Shown piece by piece: positions 1-14,717 of a stretch of 32,307 bases of DNA. How positions within the stretch are numbered: position 1 is the first letter of the stretch; each line of letters opens with the position of its first letter. This DNA comes from an uncultured Bacteroidales bacterium. Its GTDB lineage: Bacteria > Bacteroidota > Bacteroidia > Bacteroidales > Bacteroidaceae. The notes below the pieces were generated by a model. The model did not search any database. It was not told the origin of the DNA and saw nothing but the letters and a program-made list of their open reading frames with translations. A program made the translations under genes and the position numbers. The DNA lies in the NCBI GenBank assembly GCA_902782245.1, contig CACZMI010000019.1:1-32307 (forward strand), in the 5' to 3' direction.

Positions 1-843
1 GACGGTATGCGTCTGAGCCTTGCCAAGCGTTTCGCTTTCCAGCACAACAACATGGAGAGCCTTGAGAAGCAGCTCAACCACGCCTGCAAGCTGGCCGATG
101 AGCAGGGCGGCGGCGTTCTGGTAATCACCGAGGGTGTGTTCGGCATGGCCGGTGACCTGGGTCATTTGGCTGACATCGTAGAGTTCAAGAAGAAATATCC
201 GTTCCGTATACTTATCGACGATGCACACGGTTTTGGTACAATGGGTGCACACGGTCGCGGTACAGCCGAGCATTACGGCGTAATCGACCAGATTGATGTA
301 ATCTTTGACGCATTCGCCAAGAGTATGGCATCAATCGGTGGTGTAGTAAGCTCAGAGCCCGAGATCATTGACCATCTGAAGTGCAACATGCGTTCACAGA
401 TCTACGCCAAGTCACTGCCGCTGCCGCTGGTTATCGGTAACCAGAAGCGTCTGGACCTGATCAAGGCTCACCCCGAGTACCGCGAGCATCTGTGGGAGGT
501 TGTAAACGCTCTGCAGGGCGGCCTCAAGTCAGAGGGCTTCAACATCGGCGTAACCGAGTCACCTGTAACACCCGTATTCTTTGAGGGTGGCATCAACGAG
601 GGTACCAACGTGGTTGTTGACCTGCGTGAGAACTACGGAATATTCTGCTCAATCGTTACATATCCCGTTATCCCGAAGGGCCAGCTGATGCTGCGTATCA
701 TACCTACTGCATCACATACTCTGGATCATGTTAAGCGCACCATCGAGGTCTTCAAGGATGTCAAGAAGAAACTTGACGCCGGCTTCTACGAGGGCGCAAT
801 CCAGGATATGAACGTATTCAAGCGTGCTCAGATAAAGAGATAA
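1..843 (+). CDS. alpha-oxoamine synthase, probable cysteate fatty acyltransferase (5' partial)
   Basis: This is the C-terminal two thirds of a PLP-dependent alpha-oxoamine synthase (serine palmitoyltransferase / KBL family). The frame is open to the left edge, so the ATG at position 7 is internal; family members are about 390-400 residues and 280 are visible. Numbering from that ATG, the IDDAHGFG block (D72, H74) would contact PLP and AKSMASIGG carries the Schiff-base lysine (K105). Members condense an amino acid with an acyl thioester, releasing CO2. The stop overlaps the next start (TAATG). Because the next genes are a cysteate-synthase-like enzyme and an SDR, I infer that the amino acid is cysteate and the product 3-dehydrocapnine, as in the Bacteroidetes sulfonolipid pathway. 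A conventional serine palmitoyltransferase is the main alternative. The family is certain; the substrate is inferred from context. Confidence 0.82.
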   Translation, partial: DGMRLSLAKRFAFQHNNMESLEKQLNHACKLADEQGGGVLVITEGVFGMAGDLGHLADIVEFKKKYPFRILIDDAHGFGTMGAHGRGTAEHYGVIDQIDVIFDAFAKSMASIGGVVSSEPEIIDHLKCNMRSQIYAKSLPLPLVIGNQKRLDLIKAHPEYREHLWEVVNALQGGLKSEGFNIGVTESPVTPVFFEGGINEGTNVVVDLRENYGIFCSIVTYPVIPKGQLMLRIIPTASHTLDHVKRTIEVFKDVKKKLDAGFYEGAIQDMNVFKRAQIKR

Positions 844-2066
844 TGGGATATCAGCTTGTCTGCAAGAAGTGCGGCAAGGTAATAGGTGACTTTGCCGCCT
901 GGTTCAGCCAGGACCAGCTGTGTGAGTGCGGAAGCAACCACGCAGAAGTGGTTTATGATGCCGATTACCGTCAGCTGGATGAACTCTGCAAGCCCGGCCA
1001 GAACGTAAGCGACCTCTACCACTACCTGCCCTTCCTCCCTCTCACGGAGGCCGATGAGAAGGTAACCTGCGGTGAGGGTGCAGTTCCCATTGAGGAATGG
1101 GAGTTCCTGAGCCGATACGCCAAGGAACGTTACGGAATAGACTGCAAGGTAGTAGTTGCCCGCAATGACCTTAACGGAGGCAGCGGCACATTCAAGGATA
1201 TAGCCGCATCACTGGCAGCCACACTGTTCAAGAAACACGGAGTAAAGGAGTATTGCCTGGCATCGACAGGTAATGCCGCCACCGCCTACGCCACCTATCT
1301 GGCCAAGGCTGGCGTCGGGTTTGACATATTCGCTCCGCACGATATGTACCCCGAAACCCAGCAGGCCATCCGCGCCACCGGTCAGAACCTCCAGGTATCT
1401 GAGGGCGGTTACGGTCAGGCCAAAGCCGAGGCTGCCGATTTCCACAAGAACCGGAACGTAATGATATCGGCCGGTAACATCGACCCCATTCGCGTAGAGG
1501 CCAAGAAGACACTTGTCTTTGAGTGCATGCGCCAACTGGGCCGAATCCCCGATGTCTATATGCAGGCAGTAGCCGGAGGCACCAGCCCCATCGCATTTGA
1601 GAAAGGAATGCGTGAGATAGCCGATGCATACCCCGAGTATAAGATGCCGCGCATGCTGCTGGTTCAGCAGGATACCTGCGATCCCATGGTCCAGGCCTGG
1701 GAATGGGCAATAGAGAACGGATTCCCGCAGGGCTGGAACAAGCACTTCCCCACTGTGGTTCCGCAGACCAGGATTTCCATCCTCACTGCCGGCACCCCCG
1801 GAATGTACCCGCTTGTAGGCCCCATCGTTAAGAACAGCGGTGGCTGTTTCCTGCGCGTCAAGGAAGAGGGTCTGGAGCGCTATGGCCGTATGGTCAAGGA
1901 TAATCAGGGCATCTACATGGGTCCCGCATCGGTAGTATGTATAGCCGGATTCTTCAAGGCACTTGAGGAGAACAAGCTCAAGAGCGGCGATCTGGTTCTG
2001 CTCAACACCGGCGAGGGATGTAACCGTGCTCTCTGGTTTAAAGAAGCAATAGACAACTGCAAATGA
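843..2066 (+). CDS. threonine-synthase-like PLP enzyme, probable cysteate synthase
   Basis: This is a fold-type II PLP enzyme of 407 residues. An N-terminal CxxC...CxC knuckle (C7, C10, C27, C29) resembles the zinc-ribbon start of some threonine synthase homologues. The PLP lysine lies in SGTFKD (K118), and the phosphate-binding loop is STGNAATA (141-148). Cysteate synthases are threonine synthase paralogues that replace the phosphate of O-phosphoserine with sulfite to make L-cysteate. That role fits here because the gene is coupled upstream to an alpha-oxoamine synthase (1-nt overlap) and downstream to an SDR (ATGA overlap), the order expected for capnine synthesis. A true threonine synthase would normally sit with homoserine genes, which are absent. 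Other beta-replacement chemistry cannot be excluded from sequence alone. Confidence 0.78.
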   Translation: MGYQLVCKKCGKVIGDFAAWFSQDQLCECGSNHAEVVYDADYRQLDELCKPGQNVSDLYHYLPFLPLTEADEKVTCGEGAVPIEEWEFLSRYAKERYGIDCKVVVARNDLNGGSGTFKDIAASLAATLFKKHGVKEYCLASTGNAATAYATYLAKAGVGFDIFAPHDMYPETQQAIRATGQNLQVSEGGYGQAKAEAADFHKNRNVMISAGNIDPIRVEAKKTLVFECMRQLGRIPDVYMQAVAGGTSPIAFEKGMREIADAYPEYKMPRMLLVQQDTCDPMVQAWEWAIENGFPQGWNKHFPTVVPQTRISILTAGTPGMYPLVGPIVKNSGGCFLRVKEEGLERYGRMVKDNQGIYMGPASVVCIAGFFKALEENKLKSGDLVLLNTGEGCNRALWFKEAIDNCK

Positions 2067-2863
2067 ACAAGTTCAAGGATAAGGTAGTCTGGATAACCGG
2101 TTCGTCATCTGGCATAGGTGAGGCAACCGCATATGAGTTTGCGCGTGAGGGTGCACGGCTCATTCTCACTGCACTTGAGGCCGACCTCTTGGAGAAGGTA
2201 GCCGCCCGTTGCATTGAGTTGGGTGCTCCCGATGCCAAGCCCCTACCCTTCGATCTGTCTAAGAAAGATGAGGTTGCCGGGCTGGCCGAGCAGGCCTGGC
2301 AGGTATTCGGACACATAGACGTGTTCTACAACAACGCCGGCATAAGCCAGCGCGGAACCACCTGTGAGACCGAGATGCGTGTCATCAACAAGGTCATGGA
2401 CATAAACTGGTTCGCTCCGGTAATCATGACCAAGGTGATACTGCCCAAGATGATAGAGAACGGCGGCGGCCAGCTCATGGTCACCACCAGCATCAACGGA
2501 AGGTTCGGATTCCCGCTGCGTTGCGCATACAGTTCATCCAAGCACGCCCTGTACGGATTCTTTGAGACCGTCCAGGCCGAGTATTACAAGGATAACATCC
2601 GCGTAACAATAGTATGCCCAGGTCGCGTCCAGACACGCATATCTTTCTACGCACTGGAAAAAGACGGAAAGCAGCACGCCAAGATGGATGCCGGTCAGGC
2701 CGGAGGTTGCACCCCCGAGCAGGCCGCCCGCAAGATAGTCAAGGCCGTGTACCGTAAAAAGCGCGAGGTCCTTGTGGGCCGAAAGGAACTCCTGATGGTA
2801 TACATCAAGCGTTTCTTCCCCGGACTCTGCGCCAAGATAGCCCGTTCCATTAATCCGATGTAA
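2063..2863 (+). CDS. short-chain dehydrogenase/reductase, probable 3-dehydrocapnine reductase
   Basis: This is a classical SDR of 266 residues. It has the TGSSSGIG cofactor loop (12-19), NNAG (90-93), a catalytic Ser near 143, and the YSSSK motif (Y156, K160). The C-terminal 25 residues are hydrophobic and basic (YIKRFFPGLCAKIARS), which suggests membrane association, as in 3-ketodihydrosphingosine reductases. The start codon overlaps the upstream stop in an ATGA, so translation is probably coupled. By position it would reduce the ketone left by the alpha-oxoamine synthase to give the amino alcohol (capnine or dihydrosphingosine). The SDR assignment is certain; the substrate comes from gene context. 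Confidence 0.85.
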   Translation: MNKFKDKVVWITGSSSGIGEATAYEFAREGARLILTALEADLLEKVAARCIELGAPDAKPLPFDLSKKDEVAGLAEQAWQVFGHIDVFYNNAGISQRGTTCETEMRVINKVMDINWFAPVIMTKVILPKMIENGGGQLMVTTSINGRFGFPLRCAYSSSKHALYGFFETVQAEYYKDNIRVTIVCPGRVQTRISFYALEKDGKQHAKMDAGQAGGCTPEQAARKIVKAVYRKKREVLVGRKELLMVYIKRFFPGLCAKIARSINPM

Positions 2864-2884
2864 ATAACAAAAACACATAGAACT

Positions 2885-4666
2885 ATGAAAAAAGAGATTC
2901 AATTCAGTCTTGTTTACCGTGACATGTGGCAGTCATCAGGCAAGTATGTACCACGTAAGGACCAGCTGGCCAAAATTGCTCCGGTAATTATCGATATGGG
3001 CTGCTTTGACCGCGTTGAGACCAACGGCGGTGCCATGGAGCAGGTTAACCTCCTTTACGGAGAGAACCCCAACCAGGCAGTCCGTACATTCACCAAGCCT
3101 TTCAACGAGGTAGGCATCAAGACCCACATGCTTGACCGTGGTCTGAACGCATTGCGCATGAACCCGGTTCCGGCCGATGTACGTCAGCTCATGTATAAGG
3201 TAAAACACGCTCAGGGCGTTGACATCACACGTATATTCTGCGGACTTAACGATCCGCGCAACATAATTCCCTCAATCAAGTGGGCAAAGGAGGCAGGCAT
3301 GACCGCTCAGGCTACCATGTGTATCACCTATTCCAAGGTACACAACGCCGAGTACTACATCAACCTGGCCGAGCAGCTCATCGAGGGCGGCGCACAGGAA
3401 ATCTGCCTTAAGGATATGGCTGGCATCGGCCGTCCTGCAATGCTGGGCACCATCGTCCGCGCCATCAAGGAGAAACATCCCGATATCATCATACAGTACC
3501 ACGGCCACAACGGCCCCGGTTTTGCTGTAGCCTCAATGCTTGAGGTTGCCAAGGCCGGCGGTGACGTTCTGGACGTAGCCATGGAGCCCCTGTCATGGGG
3601 TAAGGTTCACCCTGATGTAATAACCATTCAGGCCATGCTCAAGGATGCCGGATTCCTGGTAAAGGACATCAACATGAAGGCTTACATGGAGGCCCGCAGC
3701 CTCACTCAGAGCTTCATGGATGACTTCCTGGGATATTGGATCGACCCCAAGAACTCATTGATGAGTTCACTGCTGGTTGGTTGCGGCCTGCCCGGCGGTA
3801 TGATGGGATCACTTATGGCTGACCTTAAGGGTATGCACGCCGCAATCAACGCCAACCTCAAGAAAAAGGGAGAGAAAGAACTCTCTGAGGATGAGCTTCT
3901 GGTTGAGCTCTTTGACGAGGTGCAGCGCATATGGCCTATGCTGGGTACTCCCTGTCTGGTTACACCGTTCAGCCAGTACGTAAAGAACGCCGCTCTGATG
4001 AACCTCTACAGCAAGTCAATGGACGAGAAGCCGTTTACACGTATGGATCCCGCCATGTGGGGTATGGTTCTGGGCAAGTCAGGCAAGCTGCCCGGCGAAC
4101 TGGCTCCTGAGATTGTGGAGATTGCCAAGGAGAAAGGCTTTGAGTTCTATACCGATGATCCTCAGGTACTCTACCCCAACGAGCTCCCGCGCTTTGAGAA
4201 GGAGATGAAGGAGAACGGCTGGGACCGTGGTCAGGATGATGAGGAGCTCTTTGAGTTCGCCATGCATGAGAAGCAGTACCGCGAGTATAAGTCCGGTCAG
4301 GCCAAGGATCAGTTCAACAAGGATCTTATGGAGCGTATGGAGAAGGCTCAGGCCGGCACAGCAGGTGCACCCGTCAAGCACTTCACCGCAGCCGATAAGC
4401 GTGCCATCCTGCACCCGGATGCCGAGCCTATCGAGGCAGCTGTCAGCGGCCGCGTAATCTGGGATCTGGACTACATGGATCAGTCAACCAATCCTCCCTT
4501 CGGCAAGCAGTACAAGAAGGGTGACTGGATGGTCGGCATTCAGGCTAGCGGCAACAGTTTCATCGACAACGCCACCGCACCCTACGACTGCCACCTTGCA
4601 GCCGTCGAGAAGGAGCACGGCTCACTCGTCACCAAGGGTGAGGTCATCGGCTGGATCGAGAAATAA
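2885..4666 (+). CDS. carboxyltransferase-domain protein (pyruvate carboxylase B / oxaloacetate decarboxylase alpha-like) with degenerate biotinyl domain
   Basis: This 593-residue protein has the layout of pyruvate carboxylase subunit B or oxaloacetate decarboxylase alpha: an HMGL-like TIM barrel, a PYC_OADA middle region, and a C-terminal biotinyl-like domain. Active-site hallmarks remain: D13 in YRDMWQS, FCGLNDPRN (118-126), the carboxyltransferase lysine in LKDMAG (K176), and the metal-binding HxH (H206, H208). From about residue 518 the chain follows a biotinyl domain (VSGRV, KKGD, TAPYD, VTKGEVIGWIE). However, the AMKM biotinylation motif is replaced by QASGNSF near 553-559, with no lysine at the expected position. 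It starts 21 nt after the SDR with no terminator between, so it may share that operon. Its substrate is unknown; it may work without biotin or with a separate carrier protein. Confidence 0.8.
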   Translation: MKKEIQFSLVYRDMWQSSGKYVPRKDQLAKIAPVIIDMGCFDRVETNGGAMEQVNLLYGENPNQAVRTFTKPFNEVGIKTHMLDRGLNALRMNPVPADVRQLMYKVKHAQGVDITRIFCGLNDPRNIIPSIKWAKEAGMTAQATMCITYSKVHNAEYYINLAEQLIEGGAQEICLKDMAGIGRPAMLGTIVRAIKEKHPDIIIQYHGHNGPGFAVASMLEVAKAGGDVLDVAMEPLSWGKVHPDVITIQAMLKDAGFLVKDINMKAYMEARSLTQSFMDDFLGYWIDPKNSLMSSLLVGCGLPGGMMGSLMADLKGMHAAINANLKKKGEKELSEDELLVELFDEVQRIWPMLGTPCLVTPFSQYVKNAALMNLYSKSMDEKPFTRMDPAMWGMVLGKSGKLPGELAPEIVEIAKEKGFEFYTDDPQVLYPNELPRFEKEMKENGWDRGQDDEELFEFAMHEKQYREYKSGQAKDQFNKDLMERMEKAQAGTAGAPVKHFTAADKRAILHPDAEPIEAAVSGRVIWDLDYMDQSTNPPFGKQYKKGDWMVGIQASGNSFIDNATAPYDCHLAAVEKEHGSLVTKGEVIGWIEK

Positions 4667-5706: not shown

Positions 5707-6495
5707 TCAGGCTTTGCGGCGAACTATCACGATGCTCACCTCATAAAGAAGATAGATGGGGAGCGTGACGATTGTCAGCGTAAAGACATCGGTGGTAGGG
5801 GTGATTATTGCAGCGATGATGAGGATCACCACGATGGCGTGACGGCGGTACTTCTTCATGAAGTCGGCGTCTATTATGCCAAGTTTGCTCAGGAACCAGG
5901 CCAGGATAGGCAGTTCAAAGAGTATTCCCATAAGCAGGGTCAGAGTCACCAGTAAATCGGTATATGACTCCAGCGTAATCACGTTGGGAATGCTCTCACT
6001 CACCTGATACGTACCCAGAAAGCGGAATGCCAGCGGGAATATAATAAGGTAGTCCAGCACGATGCCCACCATAAAGAGAATGTATGACCATACAATGACC
6101 TTGGTGGAGCTGCTGCGCTCGTTCTGGTGCAGCGCCGGGCTCACAAACCCGAACAGGGCATACAGCGTGTAAGGAAGAATCACCACCAGGCTCACATAGA
6201 ACGCCATTTTCATGTGGATCATGAACTGCGCGGTAAGCGTGGTGCTGAACAGGTCCACACTGAAATCCCTCAGAGCCGATGCATCTACGCCCATATAACC
6301 CGCCACAGCCGATATCCAGCGGTACAGGATAAAATCCGGGCTGCTAGGTGCCAGTATAAGTCTGAAAAGCGGTTCCTTGAAACAGAACGCCACGATAAAC
6401 CCCACCACGGCAACGGCAAGGACACGCAGGATCACATCCCGGAGAGCATCCAGATGGTCCCAGAAAGTCATAGGCTTATCGTCAAGGGCAGCCAT
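5707..6495 (-). CDS. tatC: Sec-independent protein translocase TatC
   Basis: This 262-residue multispanning inner-membrane protein has the TatC pattern: an N-terminal cytosolic helix FWDHLDALRD, six hydrophobic segments, and FVSPALHQNER in the first cytoplasmic loop. TatC binds twin-arginine signal peptides and, with TatA, exports folded proteins. It follows tatA by 14 nt on the same strand. One oddity is that the N-terminal motif usually reads HLxELR, and the Glu that helps read the signal peptide (E15 in E. coli numbering) is Ala here (A17). The second signal-binding Glu, in NER, is present. Confidence 0.95.
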   Translation of the reverse strand: MAALDDKPMTFWDHLDALRDVILRVLAVAVVGFIVAFCFKEPLFRLILAPSSPDFILYRWISAVAGYMGVDASALRDFSVDLFSTTLTAQFMIHMKMAFYVSLVVILPYTLYALFGFVSPALHQNERSSSTKVIVWSYILFMVGIVLDYLIIFPLAFRFLGTYQVSESIPNVITLESYTDLLVTLTLLMGILFELPILAWFLSKLGIIDADFMKKYRRHAIVVILIIAAIITPTTDVFTLTIVTLPIYLLYEVSIVIVRRKA

Positions 6496-6509: not shown

Positions 6510-6743
6510 TTACTTGGATTCGGGTTCAGCGTCCTTGGACGGCTCTTTTGCACCGGTTTCATCGGCAGGAGTGTTAATCTCCTTTTCCACCTCCTTCATA
6601 CCCTCCTTGAAGTTCTTTACGCCCTTGCCCATGCTCTTCATAAGCTCGGGAATACGCTTGGCCCCAAACAGGAGCAATATAGCCAGAACTATAAGGATAA
6701 TTTCACCGGTTCCAAGACCAAGAAGCAGAGGAGTAAGTTTCAT
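6510..6743 (-). CDS. tatA: Sec-independent protein translocase TatA
   Basis: The ATG at 6743 gives a 77-residue protein; an in-frame TTG two codons upstream is unlikely. One N-terminal transmembrane helix (about residues 8-25) is followed by the FGAKRIPEL hinge and an amphipathic helix (MKSMGKGVKNFKEGMKE), then an acidic, charged tail. This is the TatA/TatE layout. TatA oligomerises to form the translocation path with TatC, encoded 14 nt downstream. No separate tatB is seen; single TatA-type systems are common in Bacteroidetes. Confidence 0.95.
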   Translation of the reverse strand: MKLTPLLLGLGTGEIILIVLAILLLFGAKRIPELMKSMGKGVKNFKEGMKEVEKEINTPADETGAKEPSKDAEPESK

Positions 6744-6771
6744 AGCCAAATACCTTTAATTTAGTTTTTGA

Positions 6772-6849: not shown

Positions 6850-7923
6850 ATGGAAGAGAAAGATTTCTTTATAACCGGAATTCAGCAGGTGGGCGTAGGT
6901 ACCACATCAGTATATGATTCATGGAAGTGGTTCATCAACATGTTCGGAGTCGATATCCGTGTCCTTGAGGATGACACTGTTGCAGAGCGCATGCTCCCGT
7001 ATACGGGCGGACATCCGCGCAAGCGCCATGCGGCCATCGCCGTAAGCCTTCAGGGAGGCGGCGGATTCGAGATATGGCAGTATTCCGAGCGCAAGCCCAA
7101 ACCGGTAAGTTTCCAGATACAGGTAGGAGACCTGGGCATTTTCTGCGCCAAGGTCAAGTGCCGCAACACCGAAAGCGCCCACAAGTACGCATCGGAGCGC
7201 TGGGACAAGGTAAGCCCCATAGTCACTGCTCCCGATGGCTCCAAGACATTCTATATAACCGATCCCGAGGGCAACTGGTTCCAGGCCGTGCAGGATGATT
7301 ATCTACTGATTGATGAGGGTAAGGAGTTTGGCGGAATGATAGGCTGTATGATAGGCGTGACCGATATGGACAAGGCCCGCACCGTCTATTCCGATATCCT
7401 GGGATACAACAAGGTAATCTACAACGAATACGGTCATTTTGATGACCTCAAGCCCCTGGCTGGTGGTGACGGAGAGTTCCGCCGCACACTGCTCAAGTGG
7501 TCACAGCCCAACAAGGGCGCATTCTCACCCATATTCCCCACCGGTTACATAGAGCTGGTGCAGTGCCGTGACCGCGAGCCCCGCAAGATATTCGAGGGCC
7601 GCTACTGGGGAGACCCCGGATTCATCCAGATATGCTTTGACGTAACAAACATGGATGCCCTGGGCAAGTGGTGCGCCGATCACGGACACCCCTTCACCGT
7701 TGACAGCTGCCCCGACGGCAAGCAGTTCAGCATGGGTGACGCATCGGGCCGATTCACATACATCGAGGATCAGGACGGCACTCTGATAGAGTTCGTGGAG
7801 ACCTACCGCATATCGGTAGCCAAGAAACTGGGCTGGTACATCAACCTGCTCTACCGCAACCGCGAGAAGCCACTCTCCAAGCTGCTGTTCCGCGCCATGA
7901 AGATGAACCGCAAGAAGTTTTGA
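6850..7923 (+). CDS. VOC-fold (glyoxalase/dioxygenase superfamily) protein heading an Hdr-like operon
   Basis: This 357-residue protein has two VOC domains, about 8-155 and 160-322. VOC features include DPEGNWFQA in the first domain, MIGVTDMDKA plus a DILGY segment, and DQDGTLIEFVE closing the second. The family includes glyoxalase I, methylmalonyl-CoA epimerase and extradiol dioxygenases, which bind a divalent metal through His/Glu. Here the usual His positions read Gln (GIQQVG; FQIQVG; GFIQICF), so metal binding is doubtful. The C-terminal 35 residues are basic and lie outside the fold. It is the first gene of a packed operon; the next gene starts 10 nt after its stop. I infer it acts on, or delivers, the substrate of the redox complex, but the substrate is unknown. 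Confidence 0.75.
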   Translation: MEEKDFFITGIQQVGVGTTSVYDSWKWFINMFGVDIRVLEDDTVAERMLPYTGGHPRKRHAAIAVSLQGGGGFEIWQYSERKPKPVSFQIQVGDLGIFCAKVKCRNTESAHKYASERWDKVSPIVTAPDGSKTFYITDPEGNWFQAVQDDYLLIDEGKEFGGMIGCMIGVTDMDKARTVYSDILGYNKVIYNEYGHFDDLKPLAGGDGEFRRTLLKWSQPNKGAFSPIFPTGYIELVQCRDREPRKIFEGRYWGDPGFIQICFDVTNMDALGKWCADHGHPFTVDSCPDGKQFSMGDASGRFTYIEDQDGTLIEFVETYRISVAKKLGWYINLLYRNREKPLSKLLFRAMKMNRKKF

Positions 7924-7933
7924 AAAGTAAACA

Positions 7934-8551
7934 ATGGGAAACCTTATTGATATCATCAAGTCCGATGTCCGATACGAGGACTCGCTCAAGGCTTGTATGA
8001 ACTGCGGCATATGCACGGCCATCTGCCCTGCCGCCGAGTTCTACGACTATGACCCCCGCCGCATATGCGACACCGTACAACGCGGTGATGAGGAGCAGGT
8101 AGAGAAGCTGCTACGCTCCGACACCATCTGGTACTGCGGTCAGTGCATGTCGTGCAAGCCCCGTTGCCCCCGTGGCAACATACCCGGAGCGGTAATCAAC
8201 ATACTGCGCAAGGTTTCGCAGGATATGGGCTACTACAAAGAGAGCCACATGGGTCGGCAGCAGGTAGACCTGATGGCCGGCATAGGTGACAACATCCTTA
8301 ACATAGGTTACTGCGTACATCCCGATGTGGTATTCCCCGAGAAACACCCCGAGCAGGGACCTGTATGGGAGTGGTATATCAAGAACATCAAGGCTGTATC
8401 GCCCAAATTCGGAGCCAACTACCACGGTGAGGGAGCCGGTGCGCTGCGCACCATCAACCCTGAGACCATGGAGGAACTCCGCAACATATTCCGCGTAACC
8501 GGAGGAATGGATTTCCATGATTCCATAAAAAACGGCCCGCACAATGAATAA
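7934..8551 (+). CDS. HdrC-like double [4Fe-4S] protein (first copy)
   Basis: This 205-residue protein is related to heterodisulfide reductase subunit C. Two ferredoxin-type motifs are complete: C21, C24, C27, C31 followed by Pro, and C68, C71, C74, C78 followed by Pro. Both can bind [4Fe-4S] clusters and pass electrons between an HdrA-like flavoprotein and an HdrB/D-like catalytic subunit. There is no signal or membrane segment, so it should be cytosolic. The C-terminal 100 residues (after about 100) extend past the usual HdrC core and have no motif I recognise. Its stop lies inside the next gene (8-nt overlap), which suggests coupled translation and a fixed stoichiometry. Confidence 0.85.
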   Translation: MGNLIDIIKSDVRYEDSLKACMNCGICTAICPAAEFYDYDPRRICDTVQRGDEEQVEKLLRSDTIWYCGQCMSCKPRCPRGNIPGAVINILRKVSQDMGYYKESHMGRQQVDLMAGIGDNILNIGYCVHPDVVFPEKHPEQGPVWEWYIKNIKAVSPKFGANYHGEGAGALRTINPETMEELRNIFRVTGGMDFHDSIKNGPHNE

Positions 8552-8879
8552 GTTCGGATTCGCCATAAAGACTCCGCGTTCCGAGAACATGGACAAGGTA
8601 TCGCTGGAGCGTTACCACATGCTGCTGGACCGTGAGCCATCGTTCAAGCGCTGTTTCCAGTGCGGATGCTGCAGTGCCACATGCTCGGCACGCCAGTTTA
8701 CCGAATTCAGCATACGCCGCGTACACACATCGTTCCGTCGCGGAGAGTACGCCGGTCTGGACGAGGAATTAAGGAAGTGCATGCTTTGCGGCAAATGCAC
8801 CCTGGTTTGCCCACGCGGGGTAAACCTAAGGTCACTCATTATCAATATGCGTCAGATCCTTGACGAGACTAAACAGTAA
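8544..8879 (+). CDS. HdrC-like double [4Fe-4S] protein (second, short copy)
   Basis: This 111-residue protein has two complete CxxCxxCxxxC sets (C37, C40, C43, C47 and C79, C82, C85, C89), spaced as in HdrC. The first set is followed by Ser rather than Pro; the second by Pro. It lacks the C-terminal extension of the preceding gene, so the two are distinct paralogues rather than a recent duplication. It overlaps the previous gene by 8 nt, and the next gene starts 6 nt after its stop. Two HdrC-type proteins also occur in sulfur-oxidising Hdr-like (sHdr) systems, though those lack a membrane HdrDE-type subunit. It probably relays electrons to the membrane protein that follows. Confidence 0.85.
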   Translation: MNKFGFAIKTPRSENMDKVSLERYHMLLDREPSFKRCFQCGCCSATCSARQFTEFSIRRVHTSFRRGEYAGLDEELRKCMLCGKCTLVCPRGVNLRSLIINMRQILDETKQ

Positions 8880-8885
8880 GCCGCC

Positions 8886-10841
8886 ATGAAGATACATGCA
8901 TATCCGTATAATGACTTTGTGATACCGTTCCTTATCGGTACGGTACTGCTGTTTGCCATCATCATCTACAAGTACATACGCTGGATCCGCAAGTTCAGCC
9001 CGGAGCAGCGTAAGGTGATACGCAGCAACTGGTACTCCTGGAAGATATTCCCAGCTATCTGGGAGATGTTCCGTGAAGGCCTTCTGCACGCCCGCATCCT
9101 TAAGAAAAACCTGCTGCTTGGTATCATGCACCAGGCATTTGCCTTAGGCTGGTTCCTACTGATTGTGGTGGGTGCCGTAGAGAGCCGTGACGCCTTCTAC
9201 ACCATGCAGCACGAGCAGTCAATAGAGGCTGTACATGAACTGCAGCAGCAGAACGGCTGGCACATCTATAACACAGGTGAGGACAAGAACCCCGAGTACC
9301 TGAACCAGCGCCGCTACCGTGTTGAAACCGAGGACGGCATAGCCCGAATCCATTATCACCGCCCGTTCTACGTAGGCATTTTCTACCGCTACTTTGTACA
9401 CAAGGCACCGGCATCATTCCGTCAGCACAAGGCCTACTCCGACCTGATGGATGCACTGCTGCTGTACGTATTCCTGGGTCTGACGATGGCCTTCGTCAAG
9501 ATATTCTGGTCCAAGGTTCTGGGAATGCGCCGCACCACCAAGCATACCATCATAGACCGGTTCTCCAAGTTCTCGCTGTGGATGATATTCCCCATGCGTT
9601 TGCTTGCCGAGTCCATCACGGCATGTCTGTACGGCAACGGAGGATTCTTTACCCAGGCTGTGGGCAACCTGTTCGACCCCATGATTGTCCGCGGCATGGA
9701 GACATCGGTCTGGATGCTCTACTCGCTCATGCTGGGCGTGTTCTTTGTGACCATGCCGTTCACCCGCTACATGCATATCTTTACCGAGTTGCTCCTTATA
9801 TACTTCCGCAAGATAGGCGTCCGTGAGGAGACCGCCAAGACCGGCTACACACTGTTTGAACTCAACGCCTGCTCACGTTGCGGCGTGTGCATATCGGGCT
9901 GTCCCATAGACAAGGTACTTGAGAACCATGAGATCCAGTCTGTATATCTTATCCGCAGCCTGCGCAATCAGGAGCGCGGCAGCCGTCTCAGGATGATTGC
10001 CGACAACTGTCTTATGTGTGACCGATGCACGGTTGATTGCCCGGTAGGCATAGACCTGAGCGCCCTGCGCCGCCAGACACGCGCCAAGGGAGCAATCGAT
10101 ACCACCGGCAATTACGTATATCTGGACAAGAAACAGACTCCGTTCAACGCCATAGGCCGTGTAGCTTACTTTGGAGGATGTATGTCACATCTTACTCCCG
10201 GTATAACCGAGTCCATGGAGCGCATATTCACCGCTGCCGACCAGAAATACTGGTACATGGACAAGCTGGCCACCATCTGCTGCGGCAGGCCCTTGCAGCA
10301 GCAGGGATTCACCGCCCAGGCTGCCGAATTGCGCCGCAAGAACACAGACCTGATAGAGAAATCGGGGGCCACCATGCTGGTAACATCCTGCCCCATCTGC
10401 TATCAGTCATTCAAGAAGGAGTACAATCTGAACATACCGGTGGTTCACCACACCGAGTACATAGACATGCTGATTAAGCAGGGACGCCTCAAGGTACGTC
10501 ACGATGACCGCAAAGTATCATATCATGACCCGTGTGAGCTGGGCCGCGGCTGCGGAATCTATGATGAGCCGCGCAATGTGCTCAGCGCCGTGACCAACCT
10601 GCAGAAAACCCGCTATCAGCGTGAAAAGAGCGTATGCTGCGGATTCAATCTGGGTGATACTAAACTCAGCATTGAGCAGCAGACCAAAATAAGGAACGCA
10701 TCACTTGAGAATCTTACCAGCAAGCCGGTCGATGCCATAGCAACCGCCTGCCCCATGTGTAAGAAAGCGTTCCAGCATGCCACTAACGACTATCCGGTAA
10801 GGGATATAGCCGAGATCGTGGCAGAGAACCTTATAAACTGA
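8886..10841 (+). CDS. membrane HdrE/HdrD-like fusion: cytochrome-b-type domain + two [4Fe-4S] + two CCG modules
   Basis: This 651-residue protein joins a membrane domain to an HdrD-like soluble part. Hydrophobic helices lie near 11-31, 76-98, 187-208, 228-248 and 274-305. H82 in helix 2 and H297 in PFTRYMH (a motif shared with NarI/HdrE/DsrM proteins) are candidate heme-b ligands. A loop of about 85 residues separates helices 2 and 3. The soluble part has two ferredoxin motifs (C329, C332, C335, C339; C375, C378, C381, C385) and two complete CCG modules (C432, C465-C466, C502, C505; C550, C584-C585, C622, C625). CCG modules in HdrB/HdrD bind the non-cubane clusters that cleave disulfides. It would link the menaquinone pool to a cytosolic thiol/disulfide-type reaction. 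The architecture is clear; the substrate is unknown. Confidence 0.85.
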   Translation: MKIHAYPYNDFVIPFLIGTVLLFAIIIYKYIRWIRKFSPEQRKVIRSNWYSWKIFPAIWEMFREGLLHARILKKNLLLGIMHQAFALGWFLLIVVGAVESRDAFYTMQHEQSIEAVHELQQQNGWHIYNTGEDKNPEYLNQRRYRVETEDGIARIHYHRPFYVGIFYRYFVHKAPASFRQHKAYSDLMDALLLYVFLGLTMAFVKIFWSKVLGMRRTTKHTIIDRFSKFSLWMIFPMRLLAESITACLYGNGGFFTQAVGNLFDPMIVRGMETSVWMLYSLMLGVFFVTMPFTRYMHIFTELLLIYFRKIGVREETAKTGYTLFELNACSRCGVCISGCPIDKVLENHEIQSVYLIRSLRNQERGSRLRMIADNCLMCDRCTVDCPVGIDLSALRRQTRAKGAIDTTGNYVYLDKKQTPFNAIGRVAYFGGCMSHLTPGITESMERIFTAADQKYWYMDKLATICCGRPLQQQGFTAQAAELRRKNTDLIEKSGATMLVTSCPICYQSFKKEYNLNIPVVHHTEYIDMLIKQGRLKVRHDDRKVSYHDPCELGRGCGIYDEPRNVLSAVTNLQKTRYQREKSVCCGFNLGDTKLSIEQQTKIRNASLENLTSKPVDAIATACPMCKKAFQHATNDYPVRDIAEIVAENLIN

Positions 10842-10848
10842 CAAGATT

Positions 10849-11901
10849 ATGAACCGTTTTTGGAACGAATATCAGAAAGCCATAGCTGATGACCACTACT
10901 TCTATGAGCGCAGCTGCATCCGTCAGACCTTTTTCCCGGGCTCTGAGACCGCATTCCTGCGTATGCTCCGTGAAGAGCTGAACAAGGATATCTTTGATGA
11001 TTTCCGTCAGCACACCTGCACCGGCATAGGATACCATACCGATGTGGTACCACTGGAGACCACGATGACAGTGGTGGCCCGTCTCTTCTCACTCATGACA
11101 GAGCACGGCTATGAGAACTACGTACCGTCATGCGTAACATCATTCGGTGTATTCACCGAGATGTGCCATATGTGGCAGGAGCATCCCGAGCTCTTGGAGA
11201 AGACCCGTGAGAACCTCTACAAGGCCTGCAAGCGTGAGTTCAACATACCCAAGAACATAGCCCACCCGTCGGACGTGATCTATCATTTCCGCAATGAGTT
11301 GGCCCAGAAGATGAAATACCGTCTGGTAAACCGCTTTACCGGCCGTCCCCTTAAGGTTGTGGAGCACATAGGCTGCCACTACGCCAAGATATTCCCCGAT
11401 AAGGGTGTGGGTAAGGCTGAATTCCCCTACGTTCTTGCCGGTATGATCGAGGCCTGGGGCGGAGAGGTTGTTGATTATCCCGAGCGCCGTCACTGCTGCG
11501 GATTCGGATTCCGCCAGTACCTGGTTCAGGAGAACCGCGGCTACTCAGTATCCAACACCAAGAAGAAGCTTGAGTCCATGGAGCCGTATGAGCCCGATTT
11601 CATTGTCTCCAACTGTCCCGGATGCTCCATGTTCCTGGACCGCTGGCAGTACACCATAGCCGAGATGGAGCACAAGACCTATGACCGTGAAGGCTACGGC
11701 ATACCCGTACTCACATATGAGGAGATGGCCGGCCTGCTGCTGGGTTATGACCCGTGGGAACTGGGCCTGCAGATACATCAGGTACAGGCCGAGCGCCTAC
11801 TTGACAAGATAGGCATACCGTATGACCCCAAGGCCAAGTACAGAGCAGCCGACGGCAAGATACTGCGTGCCCCGGAGAAACCCGAGAACCTTTTAGTCTA
11901 A
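10849..11901 (+). CDS. HdrB-like subunit with one intact and one eroded CCG module
   Basis: This 350-residue CCG-domain protein is like heterodisulfide reductase subunit B. The second module is complete: C176 (HIGCHY), C216-C217 (HCCGFG), C256 and C259 (NCPGC). In the first module the expected cysteines are mostly replaced: FFPGS (S32) for the leading Cys, C57-T58 in place of CC, and C95 followed by S98 in place of CxxC. It can therefore hold one non-cubane cluster, where classical HdrB holds two. The C-terminal tail of about 75 residues, after the last CCG cysteine, is longer than usual. It starts 7 nt after the membrane subunit, and the HdrA-like gene follows within 9 nt. It probably forms a second catalytic or electron-entry site of the complex. 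Confidence 0.82.
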   Translation: MNRFWNEYQKAIADDHYFYERSCIRQTFFPGSETAFLRMLREELNKDIFDDFRQHTCTGIGYHTDVVPLETTMTVVARLFSLMTEHGYENYVPSCVTSFGVFTEMCHMWQEHPELLEKTRENLYKACKREFNIPKNIAHPSDVIYHFRNELAQKMKYRLVNRFTGRPLKVVEHIGCHYAKIFPDKGVGKAEFPYVLAGMIEAWGGEVVDYPERRHCCGFGFRQYLVQENRGYSVSNTKKKLESMEPYEPDFIVSNCPGCSMFLDRWQYTIAEMEHKTYDREGYGIPVLTYEEMAGLLLGYDPWELGLQIHQVQAERLLDKIGIPYDPKAKYRAADGKILRAPEKPENLLV

Positions 11902-11909
11902 GTTTGATT

Positions 11910-12926
11910 ATGAAAAAAGTCGCTATAATAGGAGCCGGCCCCGCCGGTATAGAGGCCGCATCAGTACTGGCCAAAAACGGTATTGAGGTAACCCTTTTTG
12001 AAAAGTCCGAGACTCCGCTCAAGAACATCCAGGACAAGGCATTCCTGTTCCCCAACTTCCAGGCAGCACAGGAGATAGCCGATGATCTGAGCGGCAAACT
12101 CCTGGCCGACGGCATCACTACCGTGTTCGGCGTAGAGATAATAGACCTCAAATGGCAGGGAACCGAGTGGAAACTCATTGACAGCAAGGAGCAGACATAC
12201 GTGACCGATGCCGTACTCATTGCCACCGGTTATCAGGTATTCGATGCCCACCGCAAAGAGGAACTTGGTTACGGCATATACAAGGGCGTAATCACATCGC
12301 TCGATATGGAGCAGATGATCAAACACGGCAAGATACTCAACGCCAACGGCGATGAGCCCAAGCGTATAACATTCCTGCAGTGCGTAGGCTCCCGTGACGA
12401 GAAGAGCGGCAACCACTACTGCTCCAAGATATGCTGCGTAACTGCCGTAAAACAGGCCATCGAGGTCCGCAAGCAGCTGCCCAAATGTGAGGCATCGGTA
12501 TTCTACATGGACCTACGTATGTGGGGGCAGGGATTCGAGGAGATGTACCGCACCGCCCAGGAAAAGTACGGCGTAAGTTTTGTACGCGGCCGAATATCGG
12601 AGGCTGCCGCCACGTTCGATGGCCGTGTCCAGCTTAAGAGTGAGGACACCCTGATGGGCCTGCCCCTTAAGATGACCACTGACCTTCTGGTTCTCATGGT
12701 AGGCATGGAGGCATCATGCGGCACCAAGGCCCTGGGTAAGTCATGCGGCATAAGCGGTGATTACGGATTCATCAAGTCCGTCAACCCCCACCTCTATGAC
12801 AACGAGACCGGCAAGCCCGGCCTGTTTGTAGCAGGTACCTGCAAGCGCCCCATGAGCATATCGGACTCCATTAACGATGCCCGATCGGCGGCGCTTGCCA
12901 TTAAAGATTATCTGGAAACGATATGA
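11910..12926 (+). CDS. short HdrA-like FAD protein
   Basis: I chose the ATG at 11910 (MKKVAIIGAG); a TTG two codons upstream is the alternative. The 338-residue product has an N-terminal dinucleotide fold (GAGPAG, 8-13; FAD acidic residue near E31) and an ATG-type second loop (LIATGYQ). It also has the HdrA signature: C158 in LQCVGSRD, then C171, C175, C176 (YCSKICC), which binds a [4Fe-4S] cluster. The C-terminal AGTCKRPMSISDSINDA matches the flavin-binding end of HdrA. It lacks the N-terminal thioredoxin-reductase-like extension and the C-terminal ferredoxin domain of methanogen HdrA (about 650 residues). It is the last gene of the operon, followed directly by a strong terminator. Confidence 0.85.
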   Translation: MKKVAIIGAGPAGIEAASVLAKNGIEVTLFEKSETPLKNIQDKAFLFPNFQAAQEIADDLSGKLLADGITTVFGVEIIDLKWQGTEWKLIDSKEQTYVTDAVLIATGYQVFDAHRKEELGYGIYKGVITSLDMEQMIKHGKILNANGDEPKRITFLQCVGSRDEKSGNHYCSKICCVTAVKQAIEVRKQLPKCEASVFYMDLRMWGQGFEEMYRTAQEKYGVSFVRGRISEAAATFDGRVQLKSEDTLMGLPLKMTTDLLVLMVGMEASCGTKALGKSCGISGDYGFIKSVNPHLYDNETGKPGLFVAGTCKRPMSISDSINDARSAALAIKDYLETI

Positions 12927-12930
12927 TAAA

Positions 12931-12972
12931 AAAAAGAAATCGGTCGGAAACAAATCCGACCGATTTCTTTTT
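12931..12972. terminator. bidirectional terminator, 18-bp perfect stem
   Basis: The arms 12931-12948 and 12955-12972 pair perfectly, with a 6-nt AACAAA loop; A and T runs at the ends let it work on both strands. It separates the Hdr-like operon (+) from the convergent secreted-protein genes (-). Confidence 0.9.
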
Positions 12973-13490: not shown

Positions 13491-14717
13491 TTATTTAAAA
13501 TCAACCTGAGCCCAGGGGATCCACTTCTGAACCTCTTTGTCAGCCAAGGTCTCGTCAACAAACTGGATGATGGTGTTGGCATCCTCCTTGCCAAGCAGGA
13601 ATTTGTCAATGAAGGCCTCAACCTCGGGATACTGGCTCTTGGGGAGCTGGCAGTGACCATGCTTGCCCTGAACTGAGAATCCCATACGGTCCTCAATGCC
13701 GAACTTCTTCCAAACCTCACGGGCAGCTACGCATGATACGTAACCTGCCTCATCAGCCAGCCACTCATAGTCTGTGTTACCCAGAACCAGCAGGGCACGC
13801 GGGCAAACCAGAGCGCAGAGCTCATGATGGTCATACGGAAGCTTTGATACGTTGGCATCCTTCCAATCCCACATTGACTCCTTGAACCAGTGGGGATCAG
13901 TGTTGCCCAAAGTCTCTACATGACCCAGAGTCTCGGATACACGCCATGCAGCAGCACCGCCGCCACCGGGCTCCTGAGCGATTGTCAGAGCAATACGCTC
14001 ATCGAATGCGCCTGACCAGAGAGCCATCTTACCTGCATATGAGCAACCGGTTACGCCGATGTGCTTCATATCAATCTTGCTGGCGGCACCTACAATCTCC
14101 AGACCGTCAATGATGCGGCTTACGCCCCAGGGCCACATTGCGTATGCACCGTTCTCAACAAGCTCGGGATAGATCTTGTTGATAGGCTCGCTGCCACGCT
14201 TCTGCTGGTGAGCCATTACCTGACCCATGTTGAAGTTCATTGTGGCTATGTTGCGGTCCGAGAAGAAATTACGCGGCAGGCTGATACCTGACATACCTAT
14301 CATGAGGGGGAACGGACCGTCACCCTCGGGATATGTGATCTTAGATGTAATGGTCAGAGTCTCGCCGTTGCGGTGAACAATAACGGTAAGGGTATTATCC
14401 TCAAGCTTAGCCTCGATATCCTTCTTGTCAACCATAGGCTTCTCACCTACCTCATAGTGATAGAGCTCGCGGATAATCTCGGCACGACGCTTCTCCCAGT
14501 CCTTGAATTTCTTGACCTGCTTCTTGCTGTTTGAGAACTCAAACGGATTGGTAAGTGTCTCTGATACAGTAGCCTCTTCAACTGACGGGAATGCGGGTGC
14601 GGGATATTTGGAACCAGCCCACTCCTGATCATACACCAAAGGAATTGATTTCTGTGCCATTGCCGGAACTACTGCCAGAACGGCTGCGGCAACCAAAATT
14701 GACTTAATTCTCTTCAT
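13491..14717 (-). CDS. secreted CE15-family glucuronoyl esterase
   Basis: This 408-residue alpha/beta hydrolase has a signal peptide ending near AMAQ (about 21). CE15 hallmarks are WGVSRIIDGLE (197-207), the nucleophile elbow GCSYAGK (S226; the family usually has GCSRxGK), QEPGGGG (E249) followed by AAAWR, DPHWF (274-278), and the C-terminal GKHGHCQLP carrying the catalytic His (H353 or H355). CE15 enzymes cleave esters between lignin alcohols and 4-O-methylglucuronate on xylan, freeing hemicellulose from lignin. Arg-to-Tyr at the position after the nucleophile differs from the fungal consensus; bacterial members vary. The gene has its own -7 box and is followed by the small sorting-domain-like protein. 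Export to the periplasm or surface is likely. Confidence 0.85.
   Translation of the reverse strand: MKRIKSILVAAAVLAVVPAMAQKSIPLVYDQEWAGSKYPAPAFPSVEEATVSETLTNPFEFSNSKKQVKKFKDWEKRRAEIIRELYHYEVGEKPMVDKKDIEAKLEDNTLTVIVHRNGETLTITSKITYPEGDGPFPLMIGMSGISLPRNFFSDRNIATMNFNMGQVMAHQQKRGSEPINKIYPELVENGAYAMWPWGVSRIIDGLEIVGAASKIDMKHIGVTGCSYAGKMALWSGAFDERIALTIAQEPGGGGAAAWRVSETLGHVETLGNTDPHWFKESMWDWKDANVSKLPYDHHELCALVCPRALLVLGNTDYEWLADEAGYVSCVAAREVWKKFGIEDRMGFSVQGKHGHCQLPKSQYPEVEAFIDKFLLGKEDANTIIQFVDETLADKEVQKWIPWAQVDFK

Follow-up and report, generated by a model that had tools for sequence, protein, structure and literature searches.

What is the function of a packed set of heterodisulfide reductase (Hdr)-like genes in an uncultured member of the Bacteroidales? 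The window analysed here is one whole contig of 32,307 nucleotides, the start of which truncates the first gene at its 5' end. The original prediction described six genes packed as one operon, with gaps of 10 nt or less and a single 8-nt overlap, and the coordinates of the open reading frames (ORFs) confirm this arrangement. All six genes are located on the same strand:

6850..7923, + strand: VOC protein (Pfam Glyoxalase), four-module fold, no invariant His
7934..8551, + strand: HdrC1-like electron carrier with two CX2CX2CX3C [4Fe-4S] motifs (NF041779 HdrC, 89 bits; cut-off 350)
8544..8879, + strand: HdrC2-like protein with two [4Fe-4S] motifs, overlapping HdrC1 by 8 nt
8886..10841, + strand: HdrDE-like fusion (Pfam CCG twice and Fer4_8) with two [4Fe-4S] and two complete CCG motifs
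10849..11901, + strand: HdrB-like protein of the sHdrB1 kind (NF041780, 147 bits; cut-off 450)
11904..12926 (or from 11910), + strand: HdrA-like FAD protein of sHdrA length, full-length match to 6tjr
12931..12972, both strands: terminator-like hairpin of 18 pairs at the end of the operon, after the last gene

The encoded proteins comprise, in this order, 357, 205, 111, 651, 350, and 340 (or 338) amino acids, and the spacings between the genes are 10, -8, 6, 7, and 2 (or 8) nt. Pfam and NCBIfam assigned them to VOC/glyoxalase proteins, 4Fe-4S dicluster (HdrC-like) proteins (two genes), a protein with 4Fe-4S and two CCG domains, a CCG (HdrB-like) protein, and an HdrA-like flavoprotein. Of 30 loci from the genus, the window among them, 27 have the VOC gene followed by HdrC1, HdrC2, and the beginning of HdrDE; these loci extend no further than HdrDE. 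Since the order VOC-HdrC1-HdrC2-HdrDE is kept in these loci, the packed gene set is not a product of chance.

A sulfonolipid gene set is present upstream of this operon, at 1-2863. The genes at 1-4666 did not figure in the original prediction:

1..843, + strand: cysteate acyltransferase of the CFAT/SulA kind, truncated at the 5' end (start of the listed ORF at 7)
843..2066, + strand: CysS407, PLP enzyme of the threonine-synthase/cysteate-synthase kind (TIGR03844, 108 bits; cut-off about 325)
2063..2863, + strand: SDR (NF004825, 232 bits; cut-off 215), with CFAT, CysS, or VOC genes as neighbours in relatives
2885..4666, + strand: divergent pyruvate-carboxylase-B/OadA-like protein (PRK09282, 207 bits, below the cut-off of 402)

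Between these genes and the VOC-Hdr operon, the opposite strand carries tatC, a TatA-like ORF, and one unknown gene. The CFAT of the window, which covers residues 145-424 when aligned with a full-length relative, was matched by phmmer to 7u7h (A. finegoldii SulA; 2e-111), 28eh ('Cysteate-C-fatty acyltransferase'; 5e-98), and serine palmitoyltransferase (6e-48). CysS407 scores below the TIGR03844 cut-off, but it clusters with CysH/CysDN in some relatives and does not co-occur with the archaeal-type synthase (see below); it is probably a cysteate synthase and likely represents a second family of this enzyme. The SDR, by its family and position, is probably a 3-ketocapnine reductase. Like the known sulfonolipid pathway, the window and the linked loci contain an SDR and a cysteate-synthase-like enzyme together with CFAT; in contrast, no link of that pathway to Hdr or to a CysH route within the cluster was found in print. 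The kcr genes of A. finegoldii were reported, in the available part of that study, as not clustered with cfat and Cys (mLife 2024, PMC11211663). Other conserved neighbours of CFAT (c10-c16) were rejected as pathway genes: on reading, their sequences look like those of housekeeping genes (BamD, RpoZ, CoaBC, RecN, and FabI kind plus one unknown), so that their conservation would be ordinary synteny.

The five proteins encoded after VOC, namely HdrC1, HdrC2, a membrane/HdrD fusion, HdrB, and a short HdrA, would form one Hdr-like complex. The cluster-ligand cysteines are conserved in alignments of 66-96 homologues. These include all eight motif Cys of HdrC1 (72/72 sequences) and of HdrC2 (66/66 sequences), as well as four invariant Cys of HdrA (158, 171, 175, and 176; 90 sequences). 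The N-terminus of HdrDE, with H68, H82, and H297 invariant among 74 aligned sequences, is helical and probably membrane-embedded. HdrB displays the N-terminal signature C23/C57-T/C95-x-T-S-x-G and a complete C-terminal CCG motif. No listed Hdr-type NCBIfam model reached its cut-off with the operon proteins, and no match was found among the characterised complexes tested, which agrees with the original view that no known complex has this gene content.

Similarity to methanogen HdrABC and HdrDE extends to the FAD-FeS core of HdrA, the folds of HdrB and HdrC, and the CCG motifs. Unlike in the methanogen enzymes, however, the N-terminal HdrB motif is degenerate, and methanogen HdrA chains match the window HdrA from about residue 99 to 331 only. 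The corresponding NCBIfam equivalogs were missed (HdrA 176-229 vs 1100-1400; HdrB 128-147 vs 345-450; HdrC 63-89 vs 160-350), and to our knowledge CoM and CoB, present in methanogens, are absent here. QmoABC, DsrMK, and TmcB are Hdr-related quinone-linked complexes, and the operon may encode a Qmo-like supply of electrons to a dissimilatory APS reductase. It is unlike these complexes in its model scores (QmoC 48.9 bits vs a cut-off of 300; DsrK 67 vs 400; TmcB 46 vs 735) and unlike QmoABC, which has two HdrA-like flavoproteins, in the presence of one HdrA only.

sHdr systems, which make sulfite from sulfane sulfur as described in part of PMC11582611, occur in sulfur oxidisers as type I (shdrC1B1AHC2B2) and type II (shdrC1B1AHB3 with etfAB). 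The closest relative found outside the order is a type II-like sHdr locus from another class of the phylum (L217/L218), to the HdrA of which the window HdrA shows 33% identity. The C1-B1-A core is shared with sHdr and has the same order (C1-B-A-C2) in many relatives outside the window clade. The order in the window is C1-C2-DE-B-A, which is permuted in comparison with C1-B-A-C2-DE of other Bacteroidales. The short HdrA is collinear with 6tjr, which we take to be the sHdrA structure (residues 1-330 to 1-335, E 1.7e-51). Also, the sHdrB1 signature of the window HdrB (C23, C57-T, C95-x-T-S-x-G) is identical in HdrB of L217/L218, a comparison with sHdr-like loci and not with an experimentally studied sHdrB1.

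Unlike in sHdr, HdrC2 is free and the second HdrB part is fused to a helical membrane-type domain; the B2-like CCG pair sits in this HdrDE fusion, with 24% identity to the C2B2 protein of L217. The partner genes are those of sulfonolipid synthesis, not of sulfur-based energy metabolism. Single-sequence tblastn searches (E 1e-3) of 185 loci and the window revealed neither matches to the L217 Hyp protein, used for sHdrH, nor a DsrE relative. L217 EtfA and EtfB matched only L167 and L153, both fetched around CFAT, so that no EtfAB was found at Hdr loci in this search. LbpA was not found with Hdr either. Of 23 genomes, G054 had no GCV_H gene and the other 22 had one each, which was separated from HdrB by more than 500 kb or lay on a different contig. 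LbpA of L217 matched only L215, from its own genome. Because LbpA, sHdrH, and EtfAB were not found with the complex, it belongs to neither of the published sHdr types I and II. In two loci that were looked at (L087 and L103), HdrB occurs without HdrC1 and HdrDE at the locus, as would fit either a split operon or a smaller complex.

EtfD is a reductase of the electron-transfer-flavoprotein:quinone type. The predicted model of HdrDE (pLDDT 85.9) had its best fold match in M. smegmatis EtfD (9ojn; E 5.5e-20; 788 alignment columns, TM 0.65 by query), although the two share only 16% identity. This match supports the earlier proposal of a membrane Hdr-like complex, probably quinone-linked. Together with the operon linkage to CFAT and SDR, it also argues for an EtfD-like module that makes no sulfite but transfers electrons for a different redox reaction in the synthesis of sulfonolipids or other lipids, such as flavoprotein reoxidation or reductase supply. 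We consider such a role unlikely, given the lack of ETF genes at Hdr loci in the above search; it also leaves unexplained the anti-association with CysH and the overlap with cysteate synthase reported below.

In a number of relatives, Hdr and sulfonolipid genes occupy one operon, in the tightest case with an overlap between Hdr and a bona fide cysteate synthase gene. The gene order is VOC-CFAT-SDR-C1-B-A-C2-DE-cysteate synthase, with overlaps, in L051 and CFAT-CysS-C1-B-A-C2-DE-SDR-VOC in L089. Hdr is also at operon distance from CFAT or cysteate synthase in L058, L062-L064, L113, L132, L133, L138, L173, L178, and L189. The cysteate synthase encoded downstream of Hdr in L062 is likewise bona fide, with a TIGR03844 score of 418 (cut-off 324.9) and a match to PDB 9k3c at 9e-144. 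In a scan of named genomes, CFAT or cysteate synthase was present in the fetched flank of 21 of the 80 HdrB loci and missing from that of the other 59, flanks often being cut by contig ends. The latter loci, the five Hdr-containing genomes without detected CFAT, and the presence of VOC at 34 of the 80 loci would fit a general complex of thiol or energy metabolism, possibly with a VOC-bound substrate, to which the proximity of sulfonolipid genes is incidental. This is very unlikely in view of at least 10 changes in linkage to CFAT or cysteate synthase on a quick tree of 104 HdrB sequences (77 rows counted), on which two Hdr gene orders occur. Three Alistipes and two Butyricimonas loci belong to the 59 without CFAT or cysteate synthase in the flank. 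The Hdr locus of Butyricimonas synergistica DSM 23225 is L145.

Co-occurrence was examined in 247 genomes of the order, 175 with and 72 without CFAT, which are not phylogenetically independent. Presence was defined by E<1e-100 for CFAT, E≤1e-60 for HdrB, E≤1e-30 for CysH, CysS407, and VOC, and E≤1e-20 for the archaeal-type cysteate synthase. With G048 scored as lacking Hdr, its HdrB being cut by a contig end (L056), Hdr was found in 73/175 CFAT-positive vs 5/72 CFAT-negative genomes (p=1.2e-8). The difference among genomes without CysH (23/38 vs 2/54, p=1e-9) also speaks against a general metabolic role, as does the fact that two of the five CFAT-negative exceptions (G192 and G200; 76% and 82% complete) carry cysteate synthase. 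The link was not significant among CysH-positive genomes (50/137 vs 3/18, p=0.12). CysS407 and the archaeal-type synthase, detected in 47 and 66 of the 247 genomes, showed no overlap; CysS407 is weakly tied to CFAT (40/175 vs 7/72, p=0.02). An MGL-like enzyme was dropped as an Hdr partner, as it adjoins Hdr in only two of 186 sequences (185 loci and the window; L055 and L201).

The AlphaFold model of the VOC protein (pLDDT 86.8) was matched by Foldseek to 1zsw, GLOD4, and dioxygenases, so the structure search gave the generic four-module VOC fold only. VOC is associated with CFAT (p=1e-7) and, across all 247 genomes, with Hdr (36/46/42/123, p=0.0055), but not with Hdr within the CFAT-positive genomes (34/41/39/61, p=0.44). 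At loci without Hdr, it adjoins SDR, CFAT, or CysH genes. Thus, VOC tracks the sulfonolipid genes; only some members of the family are found next to Hdr, and VOC is not specific to it. The link originally drawn between VOC and Hdr holds as a frequent one, conserved in the genus loci mentioned above but limited to 34 of the 80 named loci; VOC as a dedicated Hdr partner was rejected. Because VOC occurs at Hdr-less loci and shows no association in CFAT-positive genomes, its suggested role in binding or making the substrate of the complex is unsupported. Nor did we find support for a CoA-linked or disulfide substrate; the neighbouring genes point to sulfite for sulfonolipid synthesis.

CysH is the usual maker of sulfite, and it is enriched together with CFAT (137/175 CFAT-positive vs 18/72 CFAT-negative genomes). 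In L203, genes for CysH, CysD, CysN, a DASS-like permease, and CysQ are located inside a CFAT-VOC-CysS407 cluster, and relatives of these genes are present in L192, L194, and L193 (cut by the contig end). CysS407 shares one cluster with CysH-CysDN in some relatives, where CysH-CysDN-permease-CysQ is a sulfate-to-sulfite route within the sulfonolipid cluster. Among the 40 CFAT-positive genomes with CysS407, four possess both Hdr and CysH, nine Hdr only, 26 CysH only, and one neither (p=2.3e-5); that is, 39 have Hdr or CysH. With one genome per family (26 families), the median p of this anti-association is 0.002. It is weak in CFAT-positive genomes with the archaeal-type synthase (14/11/30/7, p=0.047) and absent from those with neither known synthase (32/3/31/7, p=0.31). 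These weaker trends count against the reading developed below, as do the 50 of the 73 genomes with Hdr and CFAT that also carry CysH and the 15 CFAT-positive genomes that have neither Hdr nor CysH.

The CysH threshold retained 155 genomes and dropped G000 (4e-17), G147 (5e-17), and G132 (1e-25); the curated cut-off was reached by 142 of the 247. In the 23 CFAT-positive genomes with Hdr and without CysH, 18 gave no match to PAPS_reduct, and five gave matches only in frames of 392-901 amino acids, which are longer than CysH or CysD. The PAPS_reductase-domain match in G000 was rejected as CysH on reading: the PP-loop protein has 863 aa and ferredoxin-like Cys, and its gene neighbours another large ORF.

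The observed gene content, conserved cluster ligands, kinship to sHdr, operon linkage, and, in part of the sample, complementarity with CysH point to a variant of sHdr that is linked to menaquinone, has the anabolic role of providing sulfite for cysteate, and replaces the sulfate-reducing route in part of the order. We regard this as rather probable and infer substrate, direction, quinone acceptor, and complex formation as follows. The five Hdr-like proteins would constitute a membrane complex that descends from sHdr enzymes of the sulfur-oxidising kind. Sulfane sulfur, bound as a persulfide either to a carrier or to the complex itself, would be oxidised at the HdrB/HdrA sites to cytoplasmic sulfite. 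Electrons would travel from the FAD/[4Fe-4S] of HdrA through the HdrC proteins, reach the HdrDE fusion, and finally enter menaquinone. Cysteate synthase would then use sulfite to form cysteate, which CFAT and SDR would convert to capnine and sulfonolipids. Hdr would stand in for the permease/CysDN/CysH/CysQ sulfate route kept in the same cluster by other Bacteroidales. The chances are about even that gut and rumen Bacteroidales convert sulfane sulfur to sulfite in this way with menaquinone as the acceptor, without a lipoate carrier or oxygen, and solely for the sulfonolipid head.

The same pathway role could be fulfilled in the opposite direction: a thiosulfonate such as thiosulfate, S-sulfocysteine, or a similar compound would be cleaved at its S-S bond into sulfite and thiol with electrons from menaquinol or another donor. 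Clusters of this kind serve methanogen HdrB in disulfide reduction; the window HdrB has a complete C-terminal CCG motif, unlike HdrB of L217/L218, where C256 is lost; and the replacement of CysH argues for sulfite supply only. Reduction nevertheless appears improbable to us, as the nearest architectural relatives (by sHdrA-collinear HdrA, HdrB1 signature, and C1-B-A-C2 order) are oxidising sHdr-type systems, and menaquinol donates electrons only weakly where thiosulfate is to be reduced.

No earlier work that connects sulfonolipids with Hdr or with CysH genes of the same cluster was found, most subscription journals being outside the search. A cockroach paper was rejected as a precedent, since Hdr in its available part concerns Desulfosarcina and methanogens (PMC10266427). 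Gut bacterial sulfonolipids are described, in parts of two papers, as bioactive and as shifting in level with diet and disease (PMC11211663, PMC10191378). The word "sulfite" is absent from the main text of the sulfonolipid papers examined, including these two, and the source of sulfite for cysteate therefore looks open. If the oxidative reading is true, it accounts for sulfite in sulfonolipid makers without APS/PAPS reductase and ties gut sulfide or sulfane sulfur to host-active lipids through menaquinone. An sHdr-type enzyme would then work anabolically in anaerobes, with sulfur oxidation machinery as part of lipid synthesis; we know of no earlier anabolic role of such an enzyme in anaerobes. 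A gene of the pyruvate-carboxylase-B/OadA-like kind present at 2885..4666 of the window adjoins VOC in L032.

All six packed open reading frames of the Hdr operon claimed by the original prediction are present at 6850-12926, with gaps of 10, -8, 6, 7 and 2 or 8 nt. The same prediction had overlooked a sulfonolipid gene set at 1-2863. The source genome (2.5 Mb, 85.7% complete) contains the window as one entire contig, and the closest named relatives of its HdrB come from Bacteroidaceae/Bacteroidales MAGs, several of herbivore-gut origin, which is the basis for assigning it to the order Bacteroidales. The features accompanying the operon are as follows.

First gene of the set at 1-2863: cysteate acyltransferase gene of the CFAT/SulA type, cut by the contig end (match to 7u7h, 2e-111)
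843-2066: threonine-synthase/cysteate-synthase-like PLP enzyme (CysS407), after CFAT
Within 1-2863: SDR, a probable 3-ketocapnine reductase, after CysS407
2885-4666: divergent pyruvate-carboxylase-B (PycB/OadA)-like gene, after the SDR
12931-12972: strong terminator-like hairpin directly after the Hdr operon

The window CFAT matched a chain named cysteate-C-fatty acyltransferase at 5e-98 and serine palmitoyltransferase far more weakly; 7u7h is the cysteate acyltransferase SulA of A. finegoldii (PMC9304779). The PycB/OadA-like gene adjoins sulfonolipid genes in the window and in a number of relatives from the genus. The copy from locus L071, which is 99% identical, showed no AMKM-type biotin-attachment motif at its C-terminus. 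Downstream of the sulfonolipid genes and ahead of the Hdr operon, the minus strand carries tatC (5707-6495, above the NCBIfam cut-off) and a putative TatA-like ORF (6510-6749), the latter judged by reading the sequence alone. Also on the minus strand, a homologue of fungal-type glucuronoyl esterases (13491-14717; PF22244, 234 bits) adjoins an endonuclease/exonuclease/phosphatase family protein.

Family scans assigned the six ORFs to a VOC/glyoxalase protein, two 4Fe-4S dicluster proteins (HdrC1 and HdrC2), a 4Fe-4S/CCG fusion (HdrDE), an HdrB-like CCG protein, and an HdrA-like flavoprotein. The N-terminus of HdrDE is helical, and the 4Fe-4S motifs and CCG domains, two of each, lie behind it. 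Subunit alignments of 66-96 sequences each, the window included, showed that the eight motif cysteines are kept in HdrC1 (72 sequences) and HdrC2 (66), as are H68, H82, H297, and the 4Fe-4S and CCG motifs in HdrDE (74; C625 at 99%), C158, C171, C175, and C176 in HdrA (90), and the C-terminal CCG motif in HdrB (96). The N-terminal half of HdrB retains only C23 (99%), C57, and C95; these, together with T58, T97, S98, and G100, are common to HdrB of L217 and L218, loci from two genomes that belong to a different class of the phylum. HdrA matched 6tjr, presumably sHdrA, from end to end, whereas methanogen HdrA chains matched from about residue 99 onward only. The best fold match of the predicted HdrDE model (pLDDT 85.9) was EtfD of M. 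smegmatis. The HdrB signature, the end-to-end 6tjr match, and the EtfD-like model thus indicate that the complex combines a core derived from sHdr with a quinone module that is probably membrane-bound.

The L217 and L218 clusters are sHdr type II-like, with the gene order C1-B-A-hyp-C2B2-EtfB-EtfA-EtfD-like plus LbpA- and DsrE-like genes (Pfam run on L217). Type I is described as shdrC1B1AHC2B2 and type II as shdrC1B1AHB3 plus etfAB, and sHdr-LbpA systems form sulfite in the cytoplasm by oxidising sulfane sulfur (PMC11582611); LbpA was termed inevitably associated with sHdr systems (PMC6067878). Searches of the Bacteroidales Hdr loci revealed neither sHdrH nor etfAB, and LbpA was not found with their Hdr complex either; by published criteria the latter is therefore not a member of sHdr type I or II.

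Matches were present in 78 of 247 genomes of the order (E<=1e-60); a phylum-wide sample, the window's genome apart, yielded two weak ones among 334 (E<=1e-40). Some MAG loci, such as L087 and L103, carry HdrB, with or without HdrA, separate from other Hdr genes. Hdr was detected in 73 of the 175 CFAT-positive versus 5 of the 72 CFAT-negative genomes. VOC is likewise tied to CFAT (75/175 versus 7/72). VOC and Hdr were associated across all 247 genomes (both, VOC only, Hdr only, neither: 36/46/42/123; p=0.0055), with no association within CFAT-positive ones (34/41/39/61; p=0.44).

Hdr and sulfonolipid genes are operon-mates in several lineages. The order is VOC-CFAT-SDR-C1-B-A-C2-DE-cysteate synthase, with overlaps, in L051 and CFAT-CysS-C1-B-A-C2-DE-SDR-VOC in L089; DE-CFAT occurs in L178 and CFAT-CysS-C1 in L113 and L173. 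In L062, the gene that follows HdrDE encodes a bona fide cysteate synthase (TIGR03844, 418 versus a cut-off of 324.9; 9k3c, 9e-144), with relatives at the same position in L051, L058, L063, L064, and L189. Among 80 HdrB loci from named genomes, the fetched flanks contained CFAT or a cysteate synthase in 21, VOC in 34, and any of CFAT, synthases, VOC, or SDR in 37; neither CFAT nor synthase was seen in 59. Contig ends often shortened the flanks. A quick tree built from 104 HdrB (33 linked, 44 unlinked, 27 omitted because their flanks were short; support is weak at 32 of 101 inner branches) requires a minimum of 10 changes in linkage.

None of the 247 genomes carried both the archaeal-type cysteate synthase (present in 66) and CysS407 (in 47), which is compatible with a review assigning the archaeal type to gut Alistipes/Odoribacter and CapA to others (PMC10191378). 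CysS407 (843-2066; L071:1768-2991) is probably a second, threonine-synthase-like cysteate synthase family; it is weakly tied to CFAT (40/175 versus 7/72; p=0.02) and in some genomes shares one cluster with CysH/CysDN.

CysH produces sulfite. The CFAT-VOC cluster of L203 extends into genes for CysH, CysD, CysN, a DASS-like permease, CysQ, and CysS407; curated cut-offs were exceeded by CysH, CysD, CysN, and CysQ and missed by the other two. Relatives of these genes occur in L192 and L194, and of most of them in L193, up to the contig end; L195-L197 have the short form CysS-CysH-CFAT. CysH is enriched with CFAT (137/175 versus 18/72). The 40 genomes with CFAT and CysS407 comprised 4 with Hdr and CysH, 9 with Hdr only, 26 with CysH only, and one with neither (p=2.3e-5); when each of the 26 families was represented by a single genome (500 draws), the median p was 0.002 and the worst 0.0097. 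The trend was weaker with the archaeal-type synthase (14/11/30/7, same order; p=0.047) and absent with neither synthase (32/3/31/7; p=0.31); all CFAT-positive genomes gave 50/23/87/15 (p=0.0095). Hdr occurred in 23 of 38 CFAT-positive versus 2 of 54 CFAT-negative genomes lacking CysH; in those with CysH the link was not significant (50/137 versus 3/18; p=0.12). A PAPS_reduct search of the 23 CFAT-positive genomes with Hdr and without CysH gave no match in 18; the matches in the other five fell in frames of 392-901 aa, which exceeds the length of CysH or CysD. The one frame whose sequence was read, from another contig of the window's genome (L212:2742-5333), encodes a protein of 863 aa that combines a PAPS_reductase-like domain with ferredoxin-type cysteines and, judged by its sequence, is perhaps a defence gene product.

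From the sHdr kinship, the linkage to sulfonolipid genes, and the replacement of CysH, we infer that the Bacteroidales complex would supply sulfite to cysteate synthase and pass the electrons from sulfite formation to menaquinone. Judged by standard potentials, the oxidation of sulfide or persulfide to sulfite lies close to equilibrium when menaquinone is the acceptor; draining of sulfite into cysteate would therefore pull it forward. Literature searches on the topic found no published work joining Hdr with sulfonolipids. If the sulfite-making role holds, the complex works like an sHdr and is a variant of this kind placed in a new pathway context, sulfonolipid synthesis. In two genomes, PLP enzymes of Cys/Met metabolism lie directly beside Hdr genes, at L201:13763-14944 and L055:8974-10155 (69% identical) and are a possible candidate for the sulfur donor of the complex; L201 additionally carries a CysH-like gene and an OsmC gene.
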